A DNA stretch of 30,250 nt, from the IMG/VR virus record IMGVR_UViG_3300023184_000384, positions 1-30,250 of that record. One strand, given 5' to 3'. Positions 14,293 through 26,357 of this stretch are shown piece by piece. The DNA comes from a virus. The first letter of the stretch is position 1; every line of letters begins with the position of its first letter. The position numbers were made by a program, and so were the translations under genes. The notes under the pieces were generated by a model. That model made no database searches. It was not told the origin of the DNA and saw only the letters and a list, made by a program, of their open reading frames with translations.

Positions 14293-14556
14293 TTATTTTT
14301 TATTTATTAATGTTTCAAAATATGTTCTATTTACTGACATATACTTGTCTTTTTCTTCTTTGCTATTAATTTTACCACATAATTTTCTATATTTATCTAG
14401 TAATTCTTGATTTGGTGTTTTACGTTCAACTAGATGAGAATAGTTTTGCATAATATGTTCTCCTACTAATCTTTCACTTGTTAGTTGATTTAGTCTATCT
14501 ATAAACTCACGTCTTAAAGTACGAAAATTTAGAAAAAATGTTTTTATTTTTTGCAT
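14293..14556 (-). CDS. Hypothetical protein (87 aa)
   Basis: This basic, helical protein begins MQKIKTFFLNFRTLRREFID and has many Lys/Arg residues with no motif I recognise. Its ATG overlaps the stop of the glycosyltransferase upstream (TAATG), so co-translation is likely. It may be a small accessory of the block or an unrelated cargo gene. Confidence 0.65.
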   Translation of the reverse strand: MQKIKTFFLNFRTLRREFIDRLNQLTSERLVGEHIMQNYSHLVERKTPNQELLDKYRKLCGKINSKEEKDKYMSVNRTYFETLINKK

Positions 14557-15857
14557 TATATTTTAGTTAAATTTGGTAATGATATTTTCTTAAGCATTGG
14601 TAATTTAAGTGCTTGATGTTTCGGAAATTCAGGTACTCTACTTAAATATTCTTTCATTTTCTCAGTCATTTTCTCAAATGAGAAATTTTGTTTAGAATAG
14701 AATCCTTGACGTTTTCCTCCATCAACATATACCTTATAATTTTCAAACATGTCTTTTAAGTAATGCCCTATCGAAGCATAATCTGGTGAGAACCATTTAC
14801 CATCTTTTACCAACATTGTATTAGCAGCACTTGGATGAACATTAGTTAATGTACCTTTTATCAATTGAGTAAATTCTGGATTTAAAAAATCTAAATGTCC
14901 GCTCCATCCTGTTGTAAGTAGAGGTTTTTTAGATTGAGTAAATTCTAATAATGGTCTTCCAAATCCTTCCCCTTTAGTTAATGAAACCATTGCTTTCACT
15001 TTTGGATGATTATATATCTCATTAATTTCAGCATCTGTAAATTCACCATGCAATAAATATATTTTAGGTAAATTATCTGATTTTACAGTTCGTTTAATAA
15101 TATTGATACGTTTTAAAATTTCATCTCTATCCATATAAGAAGAACCCATTAAAGACGTTTTTAAAATTAGAGCTGGAGGTTTCTTAGTATTTTTAAATGT
15201 CTCTAAGAAAGATTTAATTAACAGTCCTACGTTTTTTCTATCTTCACCTAAATCTCCTGGCAGCCAGTGACCTAAATATAAGTAACAGAAATCTTCAGGT
15301 ATTGAATTTAAATCACCAATGTTTAAATTTGGTTTATCTAAAAACTTATAAATGTTTGTATCTATTCCTTCAAATATAACTTCTATAGGTGTTTTTACTT
15401 CTATAACAGCTTCTAATTGTTTAGTATGTTCATTTACTTTATTATATTTACTTGCTAGGAATCCTTTCTTAGAATGTTCAGATGAAACTAAAACTAAATC
15501 CATTCTGTTTACTCCTTCTACCCAATCAGCAGGTACAATATCTATTTCTAGACCTGCAGTGATTCCAATGTTAAATTTTCCTGCTTTTTGGAACTCATTA
15601 GGCACTGTAATCCAAATCATAACATCTGGTTGTGCACTTAACTGCATTGTAGGTAAAATGTACTCATTTAAGAAATGCCACTCTGGGTTATCGTTGATGA
15701 AATTTGTAGGTGTGTTTCCCCAATTGCAGGATAGTATTTTAATATCCCATTCATCCTTTTTCAATTCAATAATTGATTTAACTGTATCTCTTGATCTTGC
15801 TCCATAACCTGATAAGGTATCTACAGGAGCGTAAATTACACAACTAGTTTTGTTCAT
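14556..15857 (-). CDS. GT-B glycosyltransferase, GT4-like
   Basis: The 433-residue enzyme has the N-terminal acceptor-domain start PVDTLSGYGARSRD. Its C-terminal donor site reads VSLTKGEGFGRPLLEFTQSK, where E297 and E305 form the E-x7-E pair that binds the nucleotide-sugar in GT4 enzymes, followed by LLTTGWSGHLDFL. CYLYLGHWLPGDLGEDRKN fits the start of the second Rossmann-like domain. The 42-residue gene upstream overlaps its start. The substrate is unknown. The 151-codon antisense frame here is a shadow. Confidence 0.88.
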   Translation of the reverse strand: MNKTSCVIYAPVDTLSGYGARSRDTVKSIIELKKDEWDIKILSCNWGNTPTNFINDNPEWHFLNEYILPTMQLSAQPDVMIWITVPNEFQKAGKFNIGITAGLEIDIVPADWVEGVNRMDLVLVSSEHSKKGFLASKYNKVNEHTKQLEAVIEVKTPIEVIFEGIDTNIYKFLDKPNLNIGDLNSIPEDFCYLYLGHWLPGDLGEDRKNVGLLIKSFLETFKNTKKPPALILKTSLMGSSYMDRDEILKRINIIKRTVKSDNLPKIYLLHGEFTDAEINEIYNHPKVKAMVSLTKGEGFGRPLLEFTQSKKPLLTTGWSGHLDFLNPEFTQLIKGTLTNVHPSAANTMLVKDGKWFSPDYASIGHYLKDMFENYKVYVDGGKRQGFYSKQNFSFEKMTEKMKEYLSRVPEFPKHQALKLPMLKKISLPNLTKI

Positions 15858-15972
15858 ATTCTTTTATAAATTGGTTATAAATTTCTTTTTGTAATTCATT
15901 TGACATAAAAATAAAATCTTCTAGATGTTGTCTATCACTTACATATTTAACAAATTCTATTGCTAATTCCAT
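15844..15972 (-). CDS. Small protein between two GT-B genes (42 aa)
   Basis: The ATG at 15970-15972 opens MELAIEFVKYVSDRQHLEDF, ending IKEYEQN. It overlaps the start of the next glycosyltransferase by 14 bases and lies two bases after the stop of the previous one, as expected of a real gene in a packed operon. It is acidic and helical. Function unknown. Confidence 0.6.
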   Translation of the reverse strand: MELAIEFVKYVSDRQHLEDFIFMSNELQKEIYNQFIKEYEQN

Positions 15973-15974
15973 AA

Positions 15975-17429
15975 CTAGTAATTAAGTTTATGATTTAATT
16001 CTCTTTTTTCTATTTTATCTGTATCTAATAATTCGAAATTTTTTCTGGGTTTCCAAGTTGAAAATAAAGTATCTATATTTTCTATGATACGTTTCCCCAT
16101 TTTTTCTCCTGTGAATCCTGCTTCATCACCTACAGCCCATTCTCTTCCCATTAATCCTCTTTTCACACGTTCTTCTTTTTCTAACTTATAAACATTTAAT
16201 ATTTGTTCAGCAGCGTCTTCAGCTGTACATCTATCATCCCAAATATAAGGAGTTTCAGGTGAGCCTTGAATTGATCTATTTGTTGGATATACTGGAAATG
16301 CCCATTCACCGTGATTTTTTAAAGTTCCGTTGTGGTTAGATGGAAAATCAGCGTCTACTTCCATCCATTTACCATCTTTTGTAAATCTCATTTGGTCTTG
16401 CATTCCACCTGTTACATTTGCTATAATTGGTAAACCACATAATAAAGCTTCAGTTAATGCTAAGCCCCATCCTTCATTTGATGTTAATAAAATTTGAGCA
16501 TCTGACATATTATATAAGAAACTCATATGGGTTGGATCTAGTCTCTGATCTGAAAATATAATGTTATATTTTTCTTCTCCTTTAAAGAAGAAATCACATA
16601 CTGCTCCTAAATCTGTTCCATTTCCATCTACTACTTGTGTATGTAAAATAAAAGCACATTTTTTAGCTTTTTCTTCTGGTAAGTTATCAATAAATAACTT
16701 ATATGCTAATAAAGTATCAGGTATTTGTTTTCTACGAATATTTCTTGAATTGAAGAATAGAATAAAATCATATTCTTTTCCTTTCAACATATTATCTTTA
16801 AATTTTAGAAATTCTAAATATTTAGGTGAGCCAAAAGGTTCTTGACTTATTGGTTTAAATACATTTTCATTTAGACCATGAGGTACATATTCAATTATTT
16901 TGTCTTTAACCTTATCTCCTAATACTAACTTATTAATGTTAACAGTTTGTTTAGAAATTCCTAATAAAGCATCACATGCCTCATAGAATGGTCTGTTATA
17001 CATTGGTGCTGGATAATTATCCCATATGTTTAGGTAAATAATAGGAATGTGTTTTCTAATTTCATTTTCAATTTGAAACAACCAAGTAAAATATCTTGGG
17101 TCAGTAATTAAAAATATAGCATCTGGTTTTTCGTCTTTAATAAGTTGTCTTATTAGACGTGGTTCACCATATCCTTCTGTTGGATATAAAAATATACTTG
17201 AATCCGTTAGCCCAGTTTGAGCATCATTATCTTGTGATAAATCGAATTTTTTTCCTTTTTCTGGATGATTCATAGCACCTGCTACTTGTACCCAATTGAA
17301 GTGGTGTGAGGTGTTCATTACTATTTCTCTAGCAACTGTTGCTACACCTGAATGTACTCTGATATCATCACATATTAGTAAAATTTTGCGGCGTTTTTCC
17401 TTAGGAATATAACCTAATTTTTCTTTCAT
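15975..17429 (-). CDS. GT-B glycosyltransferase, GT4-like
   Basis: The 484-residue protein starts KEKRRKILLICDDIRVHSGVA, a Rossmann start with the acceptor-side glycine loop of GT4. It later has LFFNSRNIRRKQIPDTLLAY at the domain junction and LLTSNEGWGLALTEALLCGL, where E319 and E327 make the E-x7-E donor site, then IIANVTGGMQDQ. It is the first gene of the glycan block in transcription order, with an A-rich leader (TTATATTAAATAAA) before the ATG. Donor and acceptor are unknown. Confidence 0.88.
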   Translation of the reverse strand: MKEKLGYIPKEKRRKILLICDDIRVHSGVATVAREIVMNTSHHFNWVQVAGAMNHPEKGKKFDLSQDNDAQTGLTDSSIFLYPTEGYGEPRLIRQLIKDEKPDAIFLITDPRYFTWLFQIENEIRKHIPIIYLNIWDNYPAPMYNRPFYEACDALLGISKQTVNINKLVLGDKVKDKIIEYVPHGLNENVFKPISQEPFGSPKYLEFLKFKDNMLKGKEYDFILFFNSRNIRRKQIPDTLLAYKLFIDNLPEEKAKKCAFILHTQVVDGNGTDLGAVCDFFFKGEEKYNIIFSDQRLDPTHMSFLYNMSDAQILLTSNEGWGLALTEALLCGLPIIANVTGGMQDQMRFTKDGKWMEVDADFPSNHNGTLKNHGEWAFPVYPTNRSIQGSPETPYIWDDRCTAEDAAEQILNVYKLEKEERVKRGLMGREWAVGDEAGFTGEKMGKRIIENIDTLFSTWKPRKNFELLDTDKIEKRELNHKLNY

Positions 17430-20627: not shown

Positions 20628-20962
20628 AATCCTCTATCCACTAATTGAGCTATAATACCATAGTTAGTAAGATCTTGATATGTATCAGTTAATGCTTCAT
20701 TTTGTGCTTTACGACTTGTAATGATTAGATTTTTCCATCTGCTTATCTTATCATTTAGTCTAAAAAATAGACCTGTTAAAGCAAATTGTTTTTCATCATC
20801 ATTAGATAACTGAGTCCCAGCTGCTATGTTAGTTAAACCATAGTCAAGATGTTTTTTAGCAAATAACTCATACTGTTCCTTCATTATTTTCTTATATCCA
20901 CTTGCAATAGTAGGATATTCTGCTTCGAGTTGTTCGATAACTGATAGTTCTTTTTCTGCCAT
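20615..20962 (-). CDS. Nmad1/DUF1599-like protein (nucleotide-modification-associated)
   Basis: The 115-residue protein has ELFAKKHLDYGLTNI, FFRLNDKISRWKNLI and NEALTDTYQDLTNYGIIAQL, the K-x-x-D-Y-G, R-x-x-D-K-I-x-R and DTxxDLxNYxI pattern of DUF1599, a domain described (as Nmad1) as linked to modified-nucleotide synthesis in phages. It lies next to a HAD phosphatase, which fits nucleotide metabolism. The enzyme activity of the family is not established as far as I know. Its start overlaps the stop of the candidate frameshift extension as TAATG. Confidence 0.75.
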   Translation of the reverse strand: MAEKELSVIEQLEAEYPTIASGYKKIMKEQYELFAKKHLDYGLTNIAAGTQLSNDDEKQFALTGLFFRLNDKISRWKNLIITSRKAQNEALTDTYQDLTNYGIIAQLVDRGLWKK

Positions 20963-21135
20963 TAGTTTTGTCCAATTGAATTAGCCATATAAGATGTGGC
21001 TGATGTGTATGTAAAATTTTGAGGTGTTCTTGATGTTAAAACACTATTGCCGTTATGAAGTGAATTTCCAAAATTTTGATTATGGTTATATGTACCATTA
21101 CTAGTAGTGGAGGCTATTAAATTCACTTCTACTAA
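20962..21135 (-). CDS. Open -1-frame extension (57 codons), candidate frameshift product with 21132-21344
   Basis: From TTA at 21133-21135 to the TAA at 20962-20964, the -1 frame is open for 57 codons rich in Asn, Ser and Thr (for example NGTYNHNQNFGNSLHNG and NFTYTSATSYMANSIGQN). It has no ATG near its head; the nearest alternative start is a GTG a few codons in, without a ribosome site. Its TAA overlaps the next gene's ATG as TAATG, the usual junction here. The upstream frame ends at a slippery-type heptamer, so it may be made as a fusion by -1 frameshifting. If not, GTG initiation or a decayed frame would explain it. Confidence 0.55.
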   Translation of the reverse strand, partial: LVEVNLIASTTSNGTYNHNQNFGNSLHNGNSVLTSRTPQNFTYTSATSYMANSIGQN

Positions 21136-21344
21136 AAAGGGCGCATCATGATCTCAATTTGATCAAGTTGGTCTTTTTTGTCAGCAGGTATTTCCATTGA
21201 TGCAGCCATTAAAGCTGATGGTTGAGTTTCTGCTAAAAGCAATTTTGGTTCTACTAATACTTTAGATTTCAAACCTTCTTCTTTTGATTGTTTTTCTGTT
21301 GGATGCCATAGGATAGCATACTGGAATAATAGTGATTTTTTCAT
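21132..21344 (-). CDS. Conserved phage protein ending RPF (70 aa), possible frameshift upstream partner
   Basis: The 70-residue protein begins MKKSLLFQYAILWHPTEKQS, has KSKVLVEPKLLLAE, and ends DQLDQIEIMMRPF. I recall QYAILWHP...VEPK...RPF proteins in other phages as conserved hypotheticals ending at the same RPF, so the zero-frame product is probably real on its own. The last three sense codons are CGC CCT TTT then TAG, containing C_CCT_TTT. A -1 slip would extend it by 57 residues (20962-21135). Confidence 0.8.
   Translation of the reverse strand: MKKSLLFQYAILWHPTEKQSKEEGLKSKVLVEPKLLLAETQPSALMAASMEIPADKKDQLDQIEIMMRPF
21135..21141 (-). other. Candidate -1 frameshift heptamer C_CCT_TTT
   Basis: On the minus strand the zero-frame codons CGC CCT TTT TAG give the X_XXY_YYZ form with the slip codons CCT and TTT, followed immediately by the stop. 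A small stem with arms AGTA/GTG and CAC/TACT can be drawn just downstream as a possible stimulator. The evidence is sequence form only. Confidence 0.45.

Positions 21345-24418: not shown

Positions 24419-26357
<1,939 letters not shown>

Follow-up and report, generated by a model that had tools for sequence, protein, structure and literature searches.

The locus lies on the minus strand of the 30,250-nt stretch of viral DNA analysed here (positions 1 to 30,250 of IMG/VR virus record IMGVR_UViG_3300023184_000384; hereafter the window). An ORF encoding a 70-aa protein, here called the core, extends from 21344 to 21132 and ends in -QIEIMMRPF, its last codons being ATG CGC CCT TTT TAG; the assignment is based on the reading of the ORF and on its relatives. 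The heptamer C_CCT_TTT (21141-21135), recognised as slippery from its sequence and its conservation in the family, with T_TTT as its central element, directly abuts the TAG stop (21134-21132). The -1 frame entered at 21135 contains 57 open codons (LVEVNLIASTTSNGTYNHNQNFGNSLHNGNSVLTSRTPQNFTYTSATSYMANSIGQN) and closes with TAA at 20964-20962, so that the extension as a whole occupies 21135-20962 and the product of a frameshift would be 127 aa long. The stop overlaps, as TAATG, the next gene (20962-20615), which encodes a 115-aa protein similar to PHROG 1485 and DUF1599. The head of the extension lacks an ATG and has a GTG at codon 4, while the sequence YMANSI near its C-terminus (20991-20974) follows a pattern, Y-x(1-2)-A...[LIV], that recurs in the family. 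Past the slip site, the 5-nt spacer TAGTA (21134-21130) leads to an 11-bp stem, a putative stimulatory RNA structure identified by folding and covariation, in which the 5′ arm GAAGTGAATTT (21129-21119) pairs with the 3′ arm AAATTCACTTC (21067-21057). The earlier note on this DNA had described the heptamer before the stop, the 57-codon open frame with its TAATG junction and the missing ATG, all of which we find as described. It had also taken the TAATG overlap as a sign that the extension is translated; the junction is present but supports translation weakly, since relatives have other junctions.

It should be noted that a longer open -1 frame also follows at least 12 of the 52 window ORFs that reach 60 aa. 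Within the window alone, an open -1 frame past a stop is therefore not unusual, given how often neighbouring genes overlap that way. Among the same 52 ORFs, the frameshift gene is the only one that ends in T_TTY followed by a stop. It is sequence comparison with relatives that establishes the arrangement as far more than a chance occurrence. Other window genes include a T4-type clamp loader, a family B DNA polymerase and a phage GroEL-type chaperonin, as expected for a large phage. The chaperonin (PHROG 5725, Pfam Cpn60) is located at 24419-26050, near the clamp loader, and a chaperonin and clamp loader pair also flanks the frameshift gene of locus L058. Two closely spaced glycosyltransferase-like genes (PHROG 2170) are found at 14556-17429.

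Relatives of the 70-aa core were collected by protein searches of IMG/VR, by DNA patterns in which the terminal Arg-Pro-Phe could be encoded by any synonymous codons, and from the 735-kb phage LR756501. Together they form a set of 49 non-redundant viral loci of 26-67% GC, several of which are closely related, so that the set does not represent 49 independent cases. The slip site is kept in 48 of the 49 loci, the exception being L055. The protein searches did not depend solely on the 3′ end of the gene, and retention of the slip site, with the same exception, holds for the relatives found in this way as well. In the 47 frameshift loci whose contig extends far enough, the -1 tail is complete, with 44-188 open codons. 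No locus lacks an open -1 frame, the combined log10P against shuffled sequences being about -84, a value in which related loci are not independent. The earlier note had proposed to ask whether heptamer and tail recur in homologues; they do so in all relatives recovered except L055 (2989-3318), where core and tail are joined in a single frame (-RPFLEQSS-), which is either a fusion of natural origin or an artefact of assembly.

The gene is thus found, judging from these relatives, across many uncultivated large phages. In a tblastn search of annotated phages, meaningful E-values were obtained only for the 735-kb LR756501/LR756503, and the search revealed no isolated phage with a relative. GTDB genomes yielded no true relative; the sole pattern match there (L050) was rejected because it resembles an ABC ATPase. 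A further profile scan of IMG/VR added no contigs to those already collected.

Codon choice at the slip site is remarkably constrained. The tetramer T_TT[T/C/A] is retained in all 48 frameshift loci, mostly within C_CCT_TTT or C_CCT_TTC. Over the 49 loci, the penultimate codon is CCT in 45, AAT in 2 and TCT in 2, its third base always being T, and the last codon before the stop is TTT in 37, TTC in 11 and TTA in 1. Proline is encoded by CCT in 45 of 45 cases, including GC-rich genomes in which CCT is rare (log10P of about -25 relative to local proline codon usage). Analogously, in 17 GC-rich loci the third base of the Pro/Ser codon is A or T without exception (17/17), whereas G or C predominates at the third position of the neighbouring codons. 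The arginine codon is the rare CGC in 18 of 24 AT-rich loci, compared with about 1.3 expected. Since these choices depart so far from local usage, C_CCT_TTY is favoured, with T_TTY as its constant part. The X_XXY_YYZ heptamer pointed out in the earlier note is present in the window, but in the family it is T_TTY that is invariant: any of the four bases can occupy the first position of the heptamer, and while about three quarters of the loci contain a strict heptamer, about one quarter depart from the rule. In E. coli, the few tetramers prone to shifting in the presence of a stimulator include U_UU.C and U_UU.U (PMC4066793).

The recurrence of this layout bears directly on the proposal that a single ORF has been split by gene decay or by a homopolymer sequencing error. 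The run of five T at the site, where a single-base indel would merge the two frames, is what one would expect under this proposal, and L055 indeed has core and tail joined in frame. Nevertheless, the 48 loci that share this layout come from many assemblies, their codon choice is under selection, and the T run is reduced to three in the TTC versions. The earlier note had listed both a decayed frame and a single-base error as alternatives; the former is contradicted by the conserved C-terminal motif of the tail and by an open frame kept across very divergent genomes, and the latter is excluded by recurrence among relatives. In our opinion, this explanation can be set aside with near certainty.

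Slippage of RNA polymerase on the T run, yielding mRNAs that have gained or lost U, is extremely improbable. A short T run is present, but transcriptional slippage usually needs longer ones, and the run here is at most five T and only three in the eleven TTC loci. In addition, a spaced and covarying downstream stem fits the stalling of ribosomes. Transcriptional slippage is known from other systems (PMC5009743).

The downstream stem was evaluated by scanning the 100 nt after the slip site for the best perfect stem of each locus, in comparison with dinucleotide shuffles. The stem starts 5 or 6 nt past the slip site in 25 of 47 loci (Fisher p of about 3e-21, a value inflated by relatedness), although in several loci, such as L012, L081 and L089, the best single stem is not significant against the shuffles. 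The folding z-score of the 75 nt following the slip site averages -1.54 over 48 loci, and that of the window stem is -2.9. In the clade of the window, 97% of the stem cells are paired over six relatives, and 5 of the 11 pairs have undergone compensatory changes on both sides; the covariation score was reached in none of 500 shuffles and lies above all slid controls. Stimulatory structures generally begin 5-8 nt downstream of the slip site (PMC4066793). The family thus displays the elements expected of a programmed -1 signal, namely a slip tetramer, a structure 5-8 nt downstream (25/47 loci) and a conserved coding -1 frame.

Another line of evidence comes from the tails. These are rich in Ser, Thr, Asn and Gly and highly divergent in both length and sequence; the Asn/Ser/Thr richness reported earlier for the window tail holds more widely, these residues accounting for about 41% of AT-rich tails. 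A C-terminal motif, Y/F/H-x(1-2)-A...[LIVM], is nevertheless present in 38 of 47 tails, compared with 8.4 expected from shuffled C-termini, and its Tyr and Ala are encoded by synonymous codons that vary among loci. We found no convincing occurrence of the motif in the other ORFs of the collected loci. In nine pairs of relatives, the tail pN/pS ranges from 0.26 to 0.76, which is only moderately below 1. Selection acting on the tail at the amino-acid level is strongly supported by these sequence patterns.

If the tail were instead a separate small gene, translated by termination-reinitiation from an internal start such as the GTG at codon 4 of the window tail, a start codon just past the slip site would be expected, and in the window clade tail codon 4 is indeed GTG or ATG. 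However, 25 of the 47 relatives have no ATG, GTG or TTG before tail codon 15, and L016, L078, L082 and L084 have none anywhere in the tail or the open stretch upstream of it. For the former reason, separate initiation cannot explain the family in general, contrary to the GTG initiation that the earlier note had considered. It would also leave unexplained both the codon-level conservation of CCT TTY and the single-frame core and tail of L055. We therefore consider a separately initiated tail very improbable.

Taken together, the comparison with relatives supports the -1 frameshift proposed in the earlier note, and the in-frame joining of core and tail in L055 is counted in its favour. The locus is very probably expressed by programmed -1 ribosomal frameshifting; the signal itself is strongly supported by the sequences, from which we infer the slippage event and its efficiency. 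Most ribosomes would presumably terminate at the TAG after CGC CCT TTT and so yield the 70-aa core. Some would instead move back one base on T_TTT; in most loci the proline tRNA would assist by re-pairing in tandem on CCC, and the RNA stem beginning 5-6 nt downstream would stall the ribosome during the slip. The shifted ribosomes would then read TTA GTA GAA and onwards to the -1 stop, producing the rarer 127-aa protein.

Alternatively, the main trigger of the same frameshift might be a stop codon occupying the A site (a -1 "shifty stop"), in which case the level of frameshifting would report the availability of release factor. The stop abuts the slip codon in 47 of the 48 frameshift loci, and in several of them (C_TCT_TTT, G_TCT_TTT, and N_CCT with N other than C) only the phenylalanine tRNA re-pairs well, as this scheme would predict. 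Yet in L089 the slip codon is followed by GCG and the stop comes one codon later, with both the slip site and the open -1 frame kept. The strong preference for CGC suggests that two tRNAs slip in tandem, before the A site receives the stop, and the triplets that follow the slip codon (TAG in 33 loci, TAA in 11 and TGA in 3, with L089 and L055 as the exceptions) do not imply any single release factor. We regard the stop as an unlikely main trigger, and prefer tandem slippage assisted by the stem.

The frameshift mechanism itself is of a known kind, and several established systems invite comparison. As in the T3/T7 coat protein, Lactobacillus phage A2 and Listeria phages A118, A500 and PSA, whose coat or tail proteins acquire extensions by frameshifting (PMC5009743), a shift of frame close to the 3′ end of the gene would yield a minority form with a C-terminal extension. 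Here, however, the base is a 70-aa domain without an assigned role, usually encoded near replication genes; the extension consists of a linker and a short conserved tip, mostly without a known domain; and the slip site touches the 0-frame stop. The lambda-type tail assembly chaperone gpG/gpGT likewise exists as a core and an extended form, owing to a -1 shift towards the end of a small gene, but the present core is unrelated to it by profile search, no tape-measure gene was identified adjoining it among the 25 commonest neighbour families, and the extension is short and of low complexity. With dnaX tau/gamma and IS911/IS3, the locus shares a slip site followed by an RNA structure 5-8 nt downstream (PMC4066793). 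Unlike their A_AAA_AAG, its slip site is C_CCU_UUU, C_CCU_UUC or bare U_UUY, and no upstream Shine-Dalgarno element has been established at the frameshift loci. The release factor 2 gene prfB also places its slip codon directly before a stop, but there the shift is +1, at CUU UGA, within a release-factor gene, whereas here it is -1, accompanied by a downstream stem, and the gene is not one for a release factor.

The core is predicted with confidence to be a small domain of β-(α)-β-α-α-β topology (AlphaFold2, mean pLDDT 92.4). A model of the L055 fusion contains the same core with a low-confidence tail, which is probably disordered. Sequence searches of Pfam, PHROGs and PDB with the core and its alignments gave nothing consistent; comparison of 47 core proteins with PHROGs likewise revealed no consistent family and no tail chaperone. 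Fold searches with the core produced no match at E up to 0.001, and PurS, ribosomal eL20/LX and the RNA-polymerase-binding YkzG were weak leads below significance.

Neighbouring genes across the loci encode clamp loader, UvsX, RecT, SSB, exonuclease, methyltransferases, thymidylate synthase, GTP cyclohydrolase and chaperonin; thus, the identified neighbours belong mostly to replication, recombination, nucleotide metabolism or the chaperonins. A tape measure is absent from the 25 commonest neighbour families, and many neighbours have no family. We tentatively suggest that the protein functions mostly as an untailed small core, a minority of subunits carrying a flexible Ser/Thr/Asn/Gly-rich linker and a docking tip, which would be the Y-x(1-2)-A...[LIV] motif at the tail C-terminus. 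Frameshifting would then fix the ratio of tailed to untailed subunits within a phage complex.

This suggestion is favoured because the neighbours are mostly of the replication type; the fibre-like features of LR756501 make display on the virion a serious rival. In that case the core would reside on the particle, and the frameshifted tail would be a surface fibre or adhesin, like the Ig-like extensions of coat and tail proteins. In LR756501 (region L090:14306-18119), the tail, with its collagen-like GTSG repeats, matches tail-fibre and collagen families, and a nearby gene matches collagen-like tail-fibre families as well. NVGIGTTSP-like strings, which we take to resemble phage tail-fibre repeats, occur in the tails L078:1711-1845 and L082:789-926, and a similar one in L057:3207-3368; the Ser/Thr/Asn/Gly-rich composition of the tails points in the same direction. 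Against display stand the replication, recombination, nucleotide-metabolism and chaperonin neighbours, a conserved motif that is a short C-terminal tip and not a domain, and a scan of 44 tails that returned no tail-fibre family match and no recognisable surface domain. Overall, we consider display somewhat unlikely.

Returning to the tailed minority subunits, we hold the broader proposal to be evenly poised: a widespread phage family in which a -1 frameshift at the stop edge (U_UUY before the stop, plus a stem) would supply minority subunits with a linker and a docking tip, mostly beside replication genes. If true, this would be a stoichiometry switch distinct from phage tail chaperones, coat/tail display and transposases, the phage uses of frameshifting known to us; to our knowledge, no such switch is among them.

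Frameshift gene pairs of phages are known mostly from tail assembly chaperones and virion display, and the present family adds a new protein, carried by AT-rich to GC-rich phages, one of 735 kb, in which the recoding signal has been retained while the tail diverged. The gene family, its stop-abutting slip site and the use of such a site in this protein appear to be undescribed in the literature searched, a search that had most subscription journals outside its reach. Automatic gene prediction is likely to leave out the extended product or to report it as a small ORF of its own, and the product would for this reason escape attention in proteomic and functional work on large phages. The natural variants (N_CCT, A_AAT, C_TCT, TTC, TTA, the displaced stop and the in-frame fusion) constitute a test set for the parts of a bacterial -1 signal. 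One extension has a different, possibly globular appearance: that of L061 (3201-3728) is 176 codons long, with an ATG at codon 25, and may be a separate overlapping gene.
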